From positions 1 through 37,614 of the forward strand of contig CALKGM010000007.1 of assembly GCA_938084675.1 (NCBI GenBank): DNA of 37,614 bases, written 5' to 3'. Positions 25,513 through 35,546 of the stretch are shown here, one piece after another. This DNA comes from Candidatus Poseidoniaceae archaeon (GTDB lineage Archaea; Thermoplasmatota; Poseidoniia; Poseidoniales; Poseidoniaceae). Each line of letters opens with the position of its first letter. Position 1 is the stretch's first letter. The notes beneath the pieces are model-generated. The model ran no database searches and was not told where the DNA came from. It saw only the letters and a list, made by a program, of their open reading frames with translations. A program made the position numbers and the translations under genes.

Positions 25513-27036
25513 ATGGATGACAAGTACGATTTGGTAGGATTCTTCTTGGACAAGGAAGGTATTTTCCGTTCAAACATCATCAAGCTTCTGGACGGTACAG
25601 CCGCCGAAGAAAGCGCATCCAGCATCTCATTTGCTGCAGGTACATTTGCGGCTGTCAACATCGTTTTCCTGATGCTGTTTTTCTCTCAATTCGCCATTCT
25701 TTGGATTGAGCGAAAGGCTGTTGCTCGTATGCAAGACCGATACGGTGCAACCACCGCTCTTCGCTCGTTGTGGGTTGGTGAAAACGGAGTAACTGCTGGC
25801 GAGTGGTGGAATATGCTCCCGTTTGGAGCAGGAAAGCCAGTTGGTGCTATCAACAAATGGTTGAACAAGAACTTCGGAAACCGAGACGAAAACTTCGCTA
25901 CTGTTGACCGTGTCAACAACCGTTCTTGGATGGGCAAAACCATTGTCCCTGGTTTCTTCCAAAACGTCGCTGACGGAATGAAGTTTCTCGTTAAGGAGCA
26001 CATGGTTCCTCAACGTGCGGACAAATTAATTTTCGAAGTTTCACCGTTCCTTATCGTGTCCTCAACCTTGCTCATCTTGGGTATGATTCCACTCTCAAGC
26101 GGCATTTACGCAACCAATCCGGACCTCTCCATTCTCTATGCAATCGCCATCTTCGGTATTGCTCCAATTGGTGTCTTCTTCGCTGGATGGTCTTCCAACA
26201 ACAAGTATACGCTCATCGGAGGAATTCGTTCCGCCGCTCAACTCACAGCATACGAAATTCCATTGCTTCTTACCCTTCTATCGGTTGCGATTCTTTCAGG
26301 TACCTTCAACATCATTGAAAGCATCCATTTCCAGCATTCTGCAGGCTCATGGAACCTCTTCTTGATGCCACTTGGTGCGGCTCTCTTCCTCATCACGATG
26401 ATTGCAGAAGTGGAACGTGTCCCGTTCGACATGCCTGAAGCAGAAGCCGAACTGGTAGAAGGTTGGTGGACCGAATACGGCGGTATGCGATTTGGTATGC
26501 TGTTTATGGCTGAATACATCCGCACCTACGCCGCATGTTTCCTCTTCACCCACTTCTTCCTTGGCGGATGGCACCTCCCCTTCCAGGGAACCATTGGGTC
26601 CATTGAATTCTTGGGACTCGGCGGTCTTTACTTGCTCATACCTGGTGCTGTCATGACGCTCATCAAGTCATGGCTCGTCTTCCTTATCGTGTTCGTTTGG
26701 GCTCGCTTTGCCCTCGCACGAATCCGAACCGACCAAATTTTGGAATTCGGATGGCGCATGCTCCTTCCTCTTGCAGTACTCCAAGTCGTTCTCGCATTGG
26801 TGTACCGACTTTACTTGTTCAACCCAGATGAAATGTCTGCTCAAAACGACGTTGCAGGCGGTATGGCTTGGGATGCCTTTGGAATCCCCTTCTTCGTACC
26901 TGCAGCAACAACGTTGTTCTGGATGGGTATATTCTGGATCTATCTTAACGACGAAGACAAGTCAGTCGCACAGGAACGAATGTTCCACGTACAAACAGTA
27001 GAGCCTGCGGGAACAGTTGTCCCGGGGCAGGAGTGA
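25513..27036 (+). CDS. nuoH: Oxidoreductase subunit H with extra cytoplasmic loop (NuoH/FpoH)
   Basis: NuoH is the membrane subunit that links the quinone chamber to the proton arm. The 507-residue product is much longer than the usual 320-430. It has an N-terminal extension of about 40 residues, helix 1 (FAAVNIVFLMLFFSQFAILW), the IERKAVARMQDRYG loop start, then about 60 extra residues (81-147) before the conserved FFQNVADGMKFLVKEHMVPQ. Later motifs are intact: DMPEAEAELVEGWWTEYGG and GMRFGMLFMAEY with the acidic residues of the E-channel. The usual GPNRVGP after RYG is replaced by GATTA. The ribosome site is GAGGTGA before the ATG. The extra loop lies beside the quinone entrance. Confidence 0.95.
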   Translation: MDDKYDLVGFFLDKEGIFRSNIIKLLDGTAAEESASSISFAAGTFAAVNIVFLMLFFSQFAILWIERKAVARMQDRYGATTALRSLWVGENGVTAGEWWNMLPFGAGKPVGAINKWLNKNFGNRDENFATVDRVNNRSWMGKTIVPGFFQNVADGMKFLVKEHMVPQRADKLIFEVSPFLIVSSTLLILGMIPLSSGIYATNPDLSILYAIAIFGIAPIGVFFAGWSSNNKYTLIGGIRSAAQLTAYEIPLLLTLLSVAILSGTFNIIESIHFQHSAGSWNLFLMPLGAALFLITMIAEVERVPFDMPEAEAELVEGWWTEYGGMRFGMLFMAEYIRTYAACFLFTHFFLGGWHLPFQGTIGSIEFLGLGGLYLLIPGAVMTLIKSWLVFLIVFVWARFALARIRTDQILEFGWRMLLPLAVLQVVLALVYRLYLFNPDEMSAQNDVAGGMAWDAFGIPFFVPAATTLFWMGIFWIYLNDEDKSVAQERMFHVQTVEPAGTVVPGQE

Positions 27037-27045
27037 GGTGAAACC

Positions 27046-28020
27046 ATGCCAATGCATCCACACGCACAACCGAATTTTAGAAACCTATTTTGGTACCCGT
27101 TTAAGATTACTTTGATCACAGCCCTCCGAACCTTCCCGTTCATCGGTAAGCGATTCGGAAAGAAACTCGGTGATTACCACAATACCAGCCACCCTGAATT
27201 TTTGGACGATGGAAGCCGAACTCGTGCCGCATCCTCGGTTGTAATGAACGATATTTCCCGCCAAGAATTTGCTCCTGACCGTGTGACCTCTGACCTCAAG
27301 CCAACGCTTTGGAAGCCTCAAACGGTTCAATACCCGTACGAGCGACTTGAAGACATGGAGCCATGGCTGTTCGTACCAGGGAACTACAACGGAAGAATCG
27401 GTGTCATTTGGGAAACCTGTACGGCATGTAAGATGTGCGTCAACATTTGCCCGAACGATTGCCTTCACATGACGACTGAACTGCGAGTTGACGTGTTGGA
27501 TTCCGCTGACGGCGAAGATGGCGGCTTAGGTATGGAACTTGAAGTCGGCAAATACGCTGCGGTTGAAAAGCCTGAAGTCAAGGCGGAGCTAGAAGAATTC
27601 AATCTCGTTACAGCACACTCCGATGCACCTGATGAGTGGCGCTTTGCAGAAGTTCTAGACCTTTCAGGAGATACCGCTACGGTTCGATGGAATGATTCTG
27701 GAGAAGAAGCCATTGTTTCCCAAGCTGAACTCCGTCCTGCTGACGACCAAATCGTCTCTGGACGCATCGACCTCGGGCGCTGTATGTTCTGTGGACTCTG
27801 CATGGAATCTTGCGGATTCACTTCCTTCTTCATGACCAACGAATACGATGGTATGTCCGGATTTACACGGCAAGACCTGTGGTTTGATGCCTCACGAACT
27901 CGAGTTCTCCCAGGCGTTCACCAAGAAGCCGTTGACGCTGAACTAGCAAAGCGTGCCTCCAAGGAACGCACCAAGCGAGCCAAGAAGGCTGCAAAGGAAG
28001 CTGCAAAAGGGGATGCTTGA
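27046..28020 (+). CDS. nuoI: Oxidoreductase subunit I, two [4Fe-4S] ferredoxin, with large insert (NuoI/FpoI)
   Basis: NuoI carries clusters N6a and N6b and relays electrons to NuoB. The 324-residue protein is about twice the usual length of around 160-180. After an amphipathic N-terminus (FRNLFWYPFKITLITALRTF) come about 80 extra residues and then the first cluster motif C125-x2-C128-x2-C131-x3-C135-P. The second is C246-x2-C249-x2-C252-x3-C256, followed by Gly rather than the usual Pro. The spacing between the two is about 110 residues, against about 35-40 in typical NuoI. Within that insert, residues 196-234 (EWRFAEVLDLSGDTATVRW, then LRPAD) look like a Tudor/SH3-type barrel. The C-terminus is a lysine/alanine-rich tail (KERTKRAKKAAKEAAK). 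The start follows GAGGTGA. Confidence 0.95.
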   Translation: MPMHPHAQPNFRNLFWYPFKITLITALRTFPFIGKRFGKKLGDYHNTSHPEFLDDGSRTRAASSVVMNDISRQEFAPDRVTSDLKPTLWKPQTVQYPYERLEDMEPWLFVPGNYNGRIGVIWETCTACKMCVNICPNDCLHMTTELRVDVLDSADGEDGGLGMELEVGKYAAVEKPEVKAELEEFNLVTAHSDAPDEWRFAEVLDLSGDTATVRWNDSGEEAIVSQAELRPADDQIVSGRIDLGRCMFCGLCMESCGFTSFFMTNEYDGMSGFTRQDLWFDASRTRVLPGVHQEAVDAELAKRASKERTKRAKKAAKEAAKGDA

Positions 28021-28021
28021 G

Positions 28022-28297
28022 ATGGATATAGCGAGTGCTGCTGAAACCGGTGTATTCTTTCTTTTTGCTGCGATTACTCTCGGCGGTGCGCTGGGGCTTA
28101 TTTTCGCGCAACGAGTTGCACACTCGATGCTCTCGCTCATCTTCTGTTTCATGGCAGTCTCTGGAATCTTCATCCTTCTCGGAGCAGAATTCCTCGCAGC
28201 CATCCAGATTCTGGTTTACTTGGCGAGTGTAGGGTTAGTGGTACTGTTCGGTATCATGCTCACACGTCGTCAAATTCTTGAGGAGGACTTTGAATGA
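28022..28297 (+). CDS. nuoJ: Oxidoreductase subunit J, N-terminal half (NuoJ/FpoJ)
   Basis: This 91-residue membrane protein equals the first three helices of NuoJ, which is normally a single five-helix protein of about 160-200 residues. The conserved pattern is clear: GLIFAQRVAHSMLSLIFCFM, GIFILLGAEFLAAIQILVY with the usual glutamate and the broken helix 3, then FGIMLTRR. The start could be ATG 28022 or ATG 28013, which overlaps the nuoI stop; neither has a strong ribosome site. The gene ends at TGA, overlapping the ATG of the second half by four bases (ATGA), a typical translational coupling. Helix 3 is thought to rotate during turnover, so the split lies just after it. Confidence 0.9.
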   Translation: MDIASAAETGVFFLFAAITLGGALGLIFAQRVAHSMLSLIFCFMAVSGIFILLGAEFLAAIQILVYLASVGLVVLFGIMLTRRQILEEDFE

Positions 28298-28563
28298 AGT
28301 TCCTTTCTCTGTTTACCCGATTGGGGCTCGTTGCGCTGGGCTTTATCCTCGTTGCCATCGTAAACGATGACGAGGTTTGGAGCAATCCAAGCACGACCTC
28401 TCCTACTACCTCTGGACTTGCAGATTCAATGCTGAATCAATGGGGATTGGCCTTGGCCGTTCTTGGCTTGCTCATGGCCATGGCTATGATGGGTGCCGCA
28501 TACCTCGTTCGTGATGAGCGAATGGAAAATCTATTGTGGGAATTTGGAGGTGAAGAAGAATGA
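28294..28563 (+). CDS. nuoJ: Probable NuoJ C-terminal half (split gene)
   Basis: This 89-residue protein sits exactly between the NuoJ first half and nuoK. It has two hydrophobic helices (LGLVALGFILVAIV and LALAVLGLLMAMAMMGAAYL) joined by a short polar loop, then a charged end, which is what remains of NuoJ helices 4 and 5 (the last ending GA-x-L-v-R). Sequence identity in this half is low in the family, so the call rests on position, topology and the MMGAAYLVR motif. It starts with ATGA coupling and ends by ATGA coupling to nuoK. A split J gene is, to my memory, also seen in the Methanosarcina fpo operon. It is not a frameshift artefact that I can demonstrate. Confidence 0.7.
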   Translation: MKFLSLFTRLGLVALGFILVAIVNDDEVWSNPSTTSPTTSGLADSMLNQWGLALAVLGLLMAMAMMGAAYLVRDERMENLLWEFGGEEE

Positions 28564-28871: not shown

Positions 28872-31415
28872 ATGGGTAGTACAAGCAGTTCCGAAGTAAT
28901 TATTCAAAGCAGTGCGGTAGAATACGCACCTCTTATCCTCATCTTGCCCATGTTGGCTTTCCCAGTAATTCTGTTCCTTGGAAAGATCTTCAACGGCAAT
29001 CCGTTTTGGAAGAACAATGTCAAGGAAGGCGGATTGATTGCTCTTGTCATCATGGGGGCCAGTCTCCTTCTGTCTCTATGGCTCATCAAGGACTTTATTG
29101 GTAGTTTTACCAGCATGGAAGAGTTCACCGATTGGACTTGGTTCACTTCGAGCATGTGGGAGTCCGGCAATACAACCAAAACAGTCGTATTTGGGTTTGG
29201 CGTTCACGTTGACCATATTACCGTCGTTCTCCTCTTTGTTGCATCATTCCTCTGCCTTCTCATCAACAGTTTTGCTATTGGTTACATGAACACCGACCCT
29301 ATCAACGATAACCGTAACCATCGTTTCTACGCAGAGTTCGTTCTCTTCTGCTCCGGTATGCTCGGTATGGTTCTTGCAGACTCGTTCCTTTGGTTGTTCA
29401 TCTTCTGGGAATTGATGGGACTATGTTCCTATCTTCTCATTGGGTTCTACTACGAGCGACCCAGTGCAGCCTACGCAGCAAAGAAGGCCTTCCTCACTAC
29501 CCGTGTAGGCGATGTGTTCCTTATGGTCGGCCTGGCCATGCTGTGGACGCTCTTTGACGGACATCTCGATTATGCATACGTGTTCAACGATGATAACATC
29601 GCAAAAGTAGACCCTTCAAGCCTGGCATGGGCACTCGGCTTGATGTTCATTGGTGCAGTCGGCAAGTCTGCCCAATTCCCCCTCCACGTTTGGCTGCCTG
29701 ACGCAATGGAAGGTCCAACGCCTGTTTCCGCTCTCATTCACGCAGCGACCATGGTGAACGCCGGACTCTACCTCGTCGCTCGAATGTTCCCGTTCTTTGG
29801 TTCCGAGCATATGTTCGGTCAATTGGACGACCTCGCCTTTATCATCGCTGCAATTGGTGGAACCACCGCAGTCATGGCGGCAGCGATTGCTTTCGTGCAA
29901 ACCGACCTGAAGAAAGTCCTTGCATACTCAACCATGTCGCAATTAGCCTACATATTCACCGGCCTAGGTGCAGCACTCTATCTCGCCAACACACTTCACT
30001 GGCACGGTGCAGGACATGAAGTTGAACACGGCATTGTCGTTGTAGCATTCGGTGCTGCTCTCTTCCATCTGTTCAACCACGCCATGGCCAAGGGAATGCT
30101 CTTCATGGCCAGCGGTGCAGTGATTCATGAAGTTCACCATGCACACCATCATTTGCATCACGACGACCACCACCACGACTCGAGTCCCAAGGAACTCATC
30201 ATGCTTGCAACTTACCTCAAAGGCAAAGACCAATCTGCCTTTGACTTCTTTACCTCCATTGACCTTGACGGTTCAGGTGAAATTGATACCTATGAATTCA
30301 AAGAAGCGCTCAAGAGCGCAGAAATCGCAGACCTACCTCCGTGGGAAATGGAACCGCTCATGAAGGCCATCGACATGGATGGTAATGGAAAGATCAACGT
30401 TCCAGAACTGGACCTCACCTTGAGTCGTGTCCTTCTTGAAGACGCTCACGGCCACAATGACCACCACGAAGAATTTGATGCACAATCCATGGATAACATG
30501 GGTGGACTTGCTTCCAAGATGCCCATAACCGCTACGGCAATGCTCGTTGGTTCACTCTCGATTATGGGATTCCCACTTATTGGTGGATTCTGGTCAAAGG
30601 AAGGAATTATCGCGAACACCTGGCGAGTCGCTCTTGACGACCCCCGCTTCATGTATCCTGCCCTTTGTGTTCTAATCGGCGCCGGAATGACCGGGTTTTA
30701 CATGTCCCGAATGTGGCTCAAGACCTTTGCCGGAGCACCAAAGGGAGAAGTTGCAGCCCATGTTGGTCCAACCAATACATGGATCAAAACCCCTCTCTTC
30801 ATCCTTACTTTCGTAACCTTGTCTGGTATTCTTCTTGCCGGAACGGGCTTTACACACTGGGTCTCTGATAGTGGCTATGCCCCAATGTTTGACGGAGAAA
30901 AGAATCTCTTTGAAGGTGTCTTGTATGAATTGGAACACGCCTTCGCAAACCACGATTCCTTCTTCTTCATTCTCTCTTATGTGGCCCTCTTCTTTGGTGC
31001 GATTGTAGGGCCTGGACTTGCATTGTCGTTGTACGGTGGCAAATTGGATGAAGGCGAAGTTGCCAAGCCGTGGTTCACCCCAGTGCTTGCACTTAATGCG
31101 GCCGTCAAGGGACGCTACCACTGGGACAATTCGGCCCTGAGCGAATCCACCCTTGCCACAGCATTGAGCAACCGACTTTACTTTGACCATTATTACGATA
31201 TGGCCATGCTCAAGATTGTAGCAGCCTTCTCCTTCAAGGCCGCAGAAGCCGACTCAAGCGTCATTGATGGAACCATCAAGACCATTGAGCGTACTTCACA
31301 ACAACTTTCAACAAAGCTCCGTGCTCTCACGACTGGTTCTGCACGTGACTACATTCTCATGGCGGCAGTTGGGACACTCCTTCTTTTCGGCCTAATATGG
31401 GGGGTGGTTGCATGA
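28872..31415 (+). CDS. nuoL: Oxidoreductase subunit L with His-rich EF-hand insertion (NuoL/FpoL)
   Basis: NuoL is the distal antiporter-like proton pump of the complex. The 847-residue product is longer than the usual 610-680. Channel residues are present: Glu180 in FWELMGLCSY, Lys265 in GAVGKSAQFPLHVW, the His399/His403/Lys407 set in HLFNHAMAK and Lys576 in FWSKEGII. Between the last two helices, where E. coli has a short loop, residues 420-542 form an insert. It has a His cluster (residues 419-435), then two complete EF-hand loops at 464-475 (DLDGSGEIDTYE) and 501-512 (DMDGNGKINVPE) spaced 37 residues apart, then a second His-containing stretch (524-532), after which normal NuoL (MGGLASKMPITA) resumes in frame. 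The lateral-helix C-terminus (FDHYYDMAML to the end) is normal. Confidence 0.97.
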   Translation: MGSTSSSEVIIQSSAVEYAPLILILPMLAFPVILFLGKIFNGNPFWKNNVKEGGLIALVIMGASLLLSLWLIKDFIGSFTSMEEFTDWTWFTSSMWESGNTTKTVVFGFGVHVDHITVVLLFVASFLCLLINSFAIGYMNTDPINDNRNHRFYAEFVLFCSGMLGMVLADSFLWLFIFWELMGLCSYLLIGFYYERPSAAYAAKKAFLTTRVGDVFLMVGLAMLWTLFDGHLDYAYVFNDDNIAKVDPSSLAWALGLMFIGAVGKSAQFPLHVWLPDAMEGPTPVSALIHAATMVNAGLYLVARMFPFFGSEHMFGQLDDLAFIIAAIGGTTAVMAAAIAFVQTDLKKVLAYSTMSQLAYIFTGLGAALYLANTLHWHGAGHEVEHGIVVVAFGAALFHLFNHAMAKGMLFMASGAVIHEVHHAHHHLHHDDHHHDSSPKELIMLATYLKGKDQSAFDFFTSIDLDGSGEIDTYEFKEALKSAEIADLPPWEMEPLMKAIDMDGNGKINVPELDLTLSRVLLEDAHGHNDHHEEFDAQSMDNMGGLASKMPITATAMLVGSLSIMGFPLIGGFWSKEGIIANTWRVALDDPRFMYPALCVLIGAGMTGFYMSRMWLKTFAGAPKGEVAAHVGPTNTWIKTPLFILTFVTLSGILLAGTGFTHWVSDSGYAPMFDGEKNLFEGVLYELEHAFANHDSFFFILSYVALFFGAIVGPGLALSLYGGKLDEGEVAKPWFTPVLALNAAVKGRYHWDNSALSESTLATALSNRLYFDHYYDMAMLKIVAAFSFKAAEADSSVIDGTIKTIERTSQQLSTKLRALTTGSARDYILMAAVGTLLLFGLIWGVVA

Positions 31416-34841: not shown

Positions 34842-35546
34842 TTGGGTCGCAGACATGAGGAAAAAGTAGACGTGGAAGAACTCGCACGTCTTGAGAATCC
34901 TGAAGGCTCTAGTGACGGTAAAATCCGTGTCAAAATGCCCAATAAGAAAGTGAACGAAATGTTCGCTCTCGCTTCACAAATTCTTGGAGGTCGTCGTGTG
35001 AGCGTTCTATGTGCTGACGGAGAAACCCGAATGGCACGAATCCCTGGGAAAATGCGACGCCGACAATGGGTTCGTGAAGGAGACCTGATCATCGTTTGGC
35101 CTTGGGACTTCCAAGACGCAAAAGCTGACGTGAAGCACCGCTATACCAAAACTCAAGCAATGTATCTCTCACGAAAAGGGGTCCTTCCAGACGATGTCGA
35201 TATGTTCGGAATGAGCACGCGCTATGATGATGATGATGAACACGATGATTTGTTCAGTTCAGCCGGTTCACCTTCGGAAGAAGTCGCTCAACCTGTTAAG
35301 GAAGAATCAGATGACCTCTTTGCCGATGACGATGATGGTGACGACCTCTTTGCCGATGACGAGGATGGTGACGACCTCTTTGCCGATGACGAGGATGGCG
35401 ACGACCTCTTTGCTGATGAAGAAGAAACCATTGAAGAAGAATCAGAGCCTGAAGTTACTGCTGCTCCAGTTGAGGAATTCCCAGAAGAAGCAGGTGACGA
35501 CGACGACGACGATGACGATGATGACATTGACGCGCTCTTCGCATGA
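34842..35546 (+). CDS. eif1A: Translation initiation factor 1A with long acidic repeat tail
   Basis: aIF1A binds the decoding site of the 30S subunit and helps place the initiator tRNA. Residues 28-112 are the OB-fold core: VLCADGETRMARIPGKMRRR, QWVREGDLIIVWPWDFQD and VKHRYTKTQ are nearly diagnostic. Archaeal homologues are usually about 95-115 residues; this one has 234. The extra 108 residues form a strongly acidic tail with DDLF repeats in a 30-base tandem array (35313-35432) and a run of Asp that ends in DIDALFA. This recalls the acidic C-terminus of eukaryotic eIF1A that ends in DIDDI and binds eIF5B. The start is TTG with a good AGGTGA site. It lies 23 bases before the RIO1-type kinase gene. 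Confidence 0.93.
   Translation: MGRRHEEKVDVEELARLENPEGSSDGKIRVKMPNKKVNEMFALASQILGGRRVSVLCADGETRMARIPGKMRRRQWVREGDLIIVWPWDFQDAKADVKHRYTKTQAMYLSRKGVLPDDVDMFGMSTRYDDDDEHDDLFSSAGSPSEEVAQPVKEESDDLFADDDDGDDLFADDEDGDDLFADDEDGDDLFADEEETIEEESEPEVTAAPVEEFPEEAGDDDDDDDDDDIDALFA
35313..35432 (+). repeat. In-frame 30-bp tandem repeat (four units) in the aIF1A tail
   Basis: Four consecutive 30-base units begin at 35313, 35343, 35373 and 35403, each starting GACCTCTTTGC and encoding DDLFADDxDG-like decapeptides. Units 1 to 3 are nearly identical at the DNA level; unit 4 has diverged. Such identity suggests recent unit duplication by slippage. Confidence 0.92.

Follow-up and report, generated by a model that had tools for sequence, protein, structure and literature searches.

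An EF-hand pair inserted in the complex I pump subunit NuoL of a Candidatus Poseidoniaceae archaeon, with relatives on other energy proteins

INTRODUCTION

Control of energy conversion by EF-hands is generally regarded as a trait of eukaryotes. Here we describe an EF-hand pair encoded within nuoL, the gene for the distal antiporter-like subunit of complex I, in a 37,614-nucleotide stretch of DNA from a Candidatus Poseidoniaceae archaeon (GenBank assembly GCA_938084675.1, contig CALKGM010000007.1, positions 1 to 37,614; this whole stretch is called the window below). The pair had been pointed out in an earlier note made from the sequence alone. The bacterial counterpart of the window NuoL is Escherichia coli NuoL/ND5 (3rko, 7z84); the end of transmembrane helix 11 (TM11) and the start of TM12 lie just a few residues apart in 6hum_F, the chain that was matched, whereas the window NuoL has an EF-hand domain of about 87 residues there. 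This domain differs from calmodulin lobes, the regulatory domain of calcium-dependent protein kinases (CDPK), and calcyphosine in being a single pair within an archaeal membrane proton pump and in having a pre-helix of its own, and the EF-hand domain of the mitochondrial ATP-Mg/Pi carrier (SCaMC) is carried by an unrelated eukaryotic solute carrier. Calcium has been placed on complex I in E. coli, where passages of PMC8357420 describe a Ca2+ site in NuoG; that is a single site in the peripheral arm, whereas the window NuoL has an EF-hand pair in a membrane pump.

For the Poseidoniales, passages of PMC9258230 describe protein families with calcium-binding domains that are specific to the Marine Group IIa and IIb (MGIIa and MGIIb) clades, the part on gene modules mentioning neither complex I nor an ATP synthase nor the insertion of a domain, and a Na+-type ATP synthase has been inferred for the group (PMC6336850). 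EF-hands go unmentioned in the main text of a paper on archaeal fusions (PMC11237513). In agreement with the earlier note, which knew of no described EF-hand in NuoL, we found no report of EF-hand pairs on NuoL or on the other energy proteins discussed here among the papers listed in searches of the open-access literature, although such absence is not proof.

RESULTS

The nuoL gene lies at 28872..31415 on the forward strand, as do all features within it that are given below, and encodes a protein of 847 amino acids in a single frame that is without breaks in the open reading frame (ORF) list. A Pfam search with the full-length protein returned Proton_antipo_M (E value of 5.1e-62), EF-hand_1 (1.6e-8; 33.9 bits, cut-off 25.4), and the pair model EF-hand_7 over residues 456-512 (1.6e-7; 32 bits, cut-off 30), with EF-hand_5 and EF-hand_6 likewise above their cut-offs and EF-hand_8 below its own (22.9 versus 28); the EF-hand scores are far beyond chance. 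The first loop, DLDGSGEIDTYE, occupies residues 464-475 (30261..30296) and the second, DMDGNGKINVPE, residues 501-512 (30372..30407), at a spacing of 37 residues. An EF-hand loop has 12 residues, with ligands at positions 1, 3, 5, 9 (or 7), and 12 and a glycine at position 6, and both loops follow this rule in the window's genus. Across the genus, 28 named loci for NuoL could be compared (27 record sets, L182 and L183 coming from one genome): positions 1, 3, 5, 6, 9, and 12 of loop 1 are D, D, S, G, D, and E in all 28; loop 2 has D at 1, E at 12, D or N at 3, and N or D at 9 in all 28, N or D at 5 in 27 (one X), and G at 6 in 27 (one E). The EF-hand pair in the window NuoL is genuine, and Pfam and the ligand counts agree with the earlier note on its loops and their spacing. 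The ORF list and a residue check also bear out its description of an unbroken frame with NuoL residues on both sides of the insert: H399, H403, K407, and K576, which we take to be equivalent to the residues so numbered in E. coli NuoL, stand at the positions it gave and are invariant in a 52-row NuoL alignment (A3) that took in 51 of 59 eligible named sequences. A further alignment (A6) took in 33 of 40 references for the EF-hand module.

AlphaFold2 modeled the isolated EF-hand domain (residues about 438-524; 30183..30443), which consists of a pre-helix and the EF-hand pair, with a predicted local distance difference test (pLDDT) score of 93.2 and a helix-loop-helix pair fold, and the model superposes on EF-hand proteins in structure alignment; the NuoL fold was confirmed alongside the Proton_antipo_M domain. 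The conserved pre-helix, residues 440-451 (30189..30224), precedes hand 1 and is seen in the models and the superposition rows. TM11 was modeled as a helix up to residue 430, and linker residues 431-436 and 526-533 were modeled at a pLDDT below 50; over the 28 loci the linkers vary in length, from 13 to 17 residues on one side and from 14 to 25 on the other. A literature passage on TM12 suggests that the insert faces the cytoplasm, as the earlier note had it. Hydropathy counts gave overlapping segments and were not used for topology.

The earlier note took the insert to span residues 420-542 and to include clusters of histidines. Comparison with NuoL from other genera (loci L037-L055, 19 in all from 12 genera, with the loop printed for 18 and missed for L048; plus G092 of genus g18) upheld an insert but not that width. 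All 18 printed loops are short, lack EF-hands, and start with HHAH; 16 are rich in His together with Asp or Glu (e.g., HHAHHDVHHHDDHGDDHGDDHNDDHHDEFDAQSM), the loop of L037 being VIHEMHHAHHDVHHHDDHGDDHGDDHNDDHHDEFDAQSMSNMGGL, and the two from g11 (L052 and L054) are poorer in His, yet also start with HHAH. Because other genera have a His/Asp loop without EF-hands, the insertion itself covers about residues 438-524, and the His clusters on either side are what remains of an older loop, whose first half (residues 420-437; 30129..30182) leaves TM11 and whose second half (residues 525-534; 30444..30473) leads into TM12. The His clusters were accordingly rejected as part of the insert, since most other genera read have them without EF-hands. 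A 20-nucleotide imperfect direct repeat of His/Asp codons flanks the domain (left copy, 30159..30178; right copy, 30453..30472; 80% identical); it may be a trace of recombination or merely reflect shared codon content.

The window's genus (g1), which we infer from record titles to be Candidatus Poseidonia (Marine Group II), belongs to family f1. Among loci with names, the nearest are L157, from a Candidatus Poseidoniaceae archaeon (97% over a 176-amino-acid query), and L158, from Candidatus Poseidonia alphae UBA255 (96%). The earlier note held that absence of the insert from related genomes and independent assemblies would tell against it; instead, among the matches listed in a search of 318 genomes of the order, the insert was found in NuoL of 28 of 30 g1 genomes and of 9 of 10 genomes of g14, a distant second genus in another family, f2, for which the named records (L185-L193) are a Thalassarchaeaceae archaeon and unclassified Euryarchaeota. 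This search gave no NuoL match for G009 of g1 and no match for G210 of g14, and in G019 of g1 a contig end cuts NuoL before the insert site. The insert went undetected in the 278 other genomes of the order, the best of which scored 3.2e-38 versus 2.7e-50 or better for insert-bearing NuoL, and incomplete genomes may hide some. An assembly artifact or misjoin was rejected because the insert is in open frame in 28 of 30 genus genomes and the 28 named loci bear 27 accession prefixes, these loci overlapping with the other genus genomes counted. A module profile run on 80 named loci located the module within NuoL for 37 of them and within NuoJ for 9. Among the matches listed in a class-wide search with the module, 175 of 339 genomes matched at an E value of 1e-8 or better, all of them of this order; 144 nonmatching genomes were given without names. 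The locus L230, titled Flavobacteriales bacterium, is a Poseidoniales-type NuoL locus and probably a mis-binned contig.

Related EF-hand pairs occur on other energy proteins. One lies on AtpI, which is subunit a/I of the A-type ATP synthase (V_ATPase_I, E value of 7.9e-33): in g18, 48 of 62 genomes have a pair where the N-terminal part of AtpI joins the membrane part, with no AtpI match in another 7; in 49 representative genomes from 22 genera, AtpI rows spanning the insert came only from 5 g18 genomes among the matches listed. The g18 pair sits within a His/Asp linker, and insert-less AtpI (9 loci, four genera) has such a linker at the site (e.g., DDHHGHDDGHHEPTPP); AtpI linkers were seen for 14 of the 30 loci L107-L136. 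NuoJ is encoded in the window by two overlapping ORFs (28016-28563), the second half (28294..28563, forward strand; Oxidored_q3 positions 82-146, 22.6 bits, below the cut-off of 33.2) being without EF-hands. In its orthologue, an EF-hand tail follows at the C-terminus in 7 of 9 g3 genomes and 8 of 10 g14 genomes, and no match over the tail was found in 23 other genomes searched, 22 of which had a NuoJ match.

The fourth host is an oxidase-like membrane protein of family f1 (654-814 residues), with an EF-hand pair at the C-terminus in the 12 sequences read. Judged by frame length, the tail is present in 13 of 13 sampled f1 genomes, and the f2 relatives, at 534-614 residues (one partial), have no room for it in 13 of 13. 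The only PDB match of the membrane-part profile at an E value of 1 or better was cbb3 oxidase subunit I (6xkw_n, 5.8e-7), and the histidines of 6xkw_n in YGHNAVG and GHVHSG, presumably metal ligands, are unmatched by histidine in the profile consensus; the protein is probably a degenerate cbb3-oxidase-like protein. It was rejected as an ordinary COX1, as the COX1 model finds only another gene in the archaeon's own genome. In genus g2 (L147 and L148) the oxidase-like protein has two tandem EF-hand pairs rather than one. The EF-hand sites on NuoL, NuoJ, AtpI, and the oxidase-like protein would all be cytoplasmic, the sides of the last three being assumed or judged by eye from sequence.

A module tree was built from 82 sequences, with short, repeated, or X-rich matches left out. 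The NuoL, NuoJ, AtpI, and oxidase-like pairs, together with a pair on a g20 protein, form one starred clade (99/88) that stands apart from multi-hand zinc-ribbon proteins, and the deepest members of the clade are the oxidase-like tails. AtpI modules fall at more than one place (at least 2 changes), although one clade was not rejected (P = 0.40). In a NuoL backbone tree made with the insert removed (39 rows), g1 lies within f1 and g14 within f2, and 2 changes are needed; a single clade for the NuoL modules was not rejected by the approximately unbiased (AU) test (P = 0.322). The NuoL insert may have had a single origin or separate ones, as the backbone tree asks for 2 changes and a single module clade also fits. 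In the simplest history, the f1 oxidase-like protein gained the module, separate genera then acquired copies of it in NuoL, NuoJ, and AtpI, and g14 received it by transfer. The oxidase-like protein is put first because its tail is present across f1, apparently absent from f2, and deepest in the tree, and this tail is the likely source of the module; the direction of copying that we infer depends on the midpoint root and on few columns. A rough count of the ratio of nonsynonymous to synonymous substitution rates (dN/dS) gave 0.109 for the EF-hand domain, compared with 0.037 in the membrane part and 0.097 in the C-terminal part. The count drew on those 55 of the 190 pairs among 20 sequences that had dS below 1.2, of which 47 could be used for the domain and 15 for the linkers; purifying selection appears to act on the domain.

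The window holds an archaeal complex I (nuo) cluster. NuoC, NuoH, NuoI (Fer4), the first half of NuoJ, and NuoK were above the Pfam cut-offs, the second half of NuoJ was below, and the remaining nuo subunits were named by eye. NuoH (25513-27036) has 507 amino acids versus 325 in E. coli, with extra sequence near the N-terminal loops; in NuoI (27046-28020) the two 4Fe-4S motifs are separated, by eye, by about 90 additional residues; and initiation factor 1A (34842-35546; Pfam E value of 1.1e-18) ends in a long, acidic tail in which the unit DDLFADDEDG is repeated. A protein with a zinc-ribbon-like N-terminus and four or more EF-hands is found in g1, g14, and g18 (L005, L102, and L156).

DISCUSSION

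The best reading of these sequences is that a putative Ca2+-binding docking or regulatory module was recruited repeatedly to respiratory complexes. A calmodulin-like EF-hand pair, kin of the f1 oxidase-like tail, would have been copied into the TM11-TM12 loop of NuoL in an ancestor of Candidatus Poseidonia, where it would take Ca2+ from the cytoplasm and, as a Ca2+-dependent docking or regulatory domain, tune the activity of complex I or its association with other respiratory complexes. We regard such a role for the NuoL domain as probable, if well short of secure; that Ca2+ is the ligand, that the domain is cytoplasmic, and that it regulates are each presumed. A review places the sole proton exit in NuoL (PMC10212512), and the insert would thus hang beside a key point. 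The earlier note had proposed that metal binding could move the helices and so gate pumping. Direct pulling is weakened by the variable linkers, parts of which have a pLDDT below 50; because linker lengths vary, docking or recruitment is likelier, and a rigid mechanical gate fits less well than a domain that docks on a partner or on the cytoplasmic face of the pump itself. The conserved pre-helix may be a built-in target peptide that is gripped or released by the hands. Overall, the interpretation in the earlier note is partly supported. The wider proposal, of calcium control of respiration throughout the Marine Group II lineage by one module grafted repeatedly onto NuoL, NuoJ, the ATP synthase, and the oxidase-like protein, with Ca2+ setting pumping (proton or sodium) and ATP synthesis together, is more tentative, and we consider it possible rather than probable.

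Several observations weigh against our preferred explanation. This archaeon uses EF-hands generally, with no special preference for energy proteins: its genome is rich in them, with 8 matches above the cut-off in 7 ORFs (the model used matched in 1 of 14 control genomes), and they also occur on an amino-acid permease with a C-terminal EF-hand pair (L239:1483-3156, contig C24) and a ZnuA-like metal-binding protein with EF-hands and long HDEDG repeats (L243:511-2958, contig C15). The related g20 pair sits on a protein of about 628 amino acids without another Pfam domain. With EF-hands common and found on the permease, the ZnuA-like protein, and the g20 protein, the targeting of energy proteins is therefore not exclusive. 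In g18, 7 of 62 genomes carry AtpI without the insert, which is thus dispensable there. In g14, Arg replaces Gly6 of NuoL loop 1 in 9 of 9 sequences, and hand 1 may be weak; in the genus itself, the nuoL gene of one genome, G027, contains a TAA in frame outside the insert. The module tree has 83 columns and a midpoint root and drew a tool warning of long branches meeting, and dS is near saturation in the dN/dS comparison.

The readings that follow overlap with ours and with one another, and their probabilities do not sum to one. The domain might instead have a structural or assembly role, a permanently Ca2+- or Mg2+-loaded pair stabilizing NuoL or tying it to a partner without sensing; the varying length of both linkers speaks for this, and passages of PMC8357420 suggest that the Ca2+ in E. 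coli NuoG stabilizes the peripheral arm. We hold it doubtful, as canonical ligands in both loops of a calmodulin-like pair are the usual build of a sensor, and related pairs on several complexes exceed what one stability problem needs. Those same relatives, all apparently cytoplasmic, would suit matching docking domains by which NuoL, NuoJ, AtpI, and the oxidase-like protein join their complexes in a supercomplex; this overlaps with the docking form of our preferred explanation, but the genera read mostly have the module on a single pump each, alongside the oxidase-like protein, and we think such a tether distinctly unlikely.

A mobile, near-neutral passenger, kept in tolerant low-complexity loops because it is folded and harmless, would account for the His/Asp-rich linkers at the NuoL and AtpI insertion sites, for the 20-nucleotide repeat around the domain, and for the insert-less AtpI of 7 g18 genomes. 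It is very unlikely nonetheless, given loop 1 ligands conserved in 28 of 28 loci, a low dN/dS, an insert in every genus genome with the region assembled, and a set of host families of which four of five are energy-coupling or oxidase-like membrane proteins. Least probable of all is a different metal or pH function, in which the His-rich loop and the acidic domain bind Zn, Ni, or Mg or buffer protons near the channel: residues 420-535 do hold 14 His and 26 Asp or Glu, and most other genera read share the His-rich loop, but that loop is older than the EF-hands, which would be left unexplained, and the EF loops bear Ca2+-type ligands.

Under our preferred reading, of a Ca2+-binding docking or regulatory module, these archaea, which belong to an abundant group of the ocean, may tune energy production by calcium. 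An EF-hand pair in a core complex I pump, together with its relatives in related genera, would be evidence that one archaeal group wired calcium into respiration. The finding also shows that a domain has passed from subunit to subunit among different respiratory complexes, and as a short soluble piece of about 90 residues this domain makes the calcium question directly testable.
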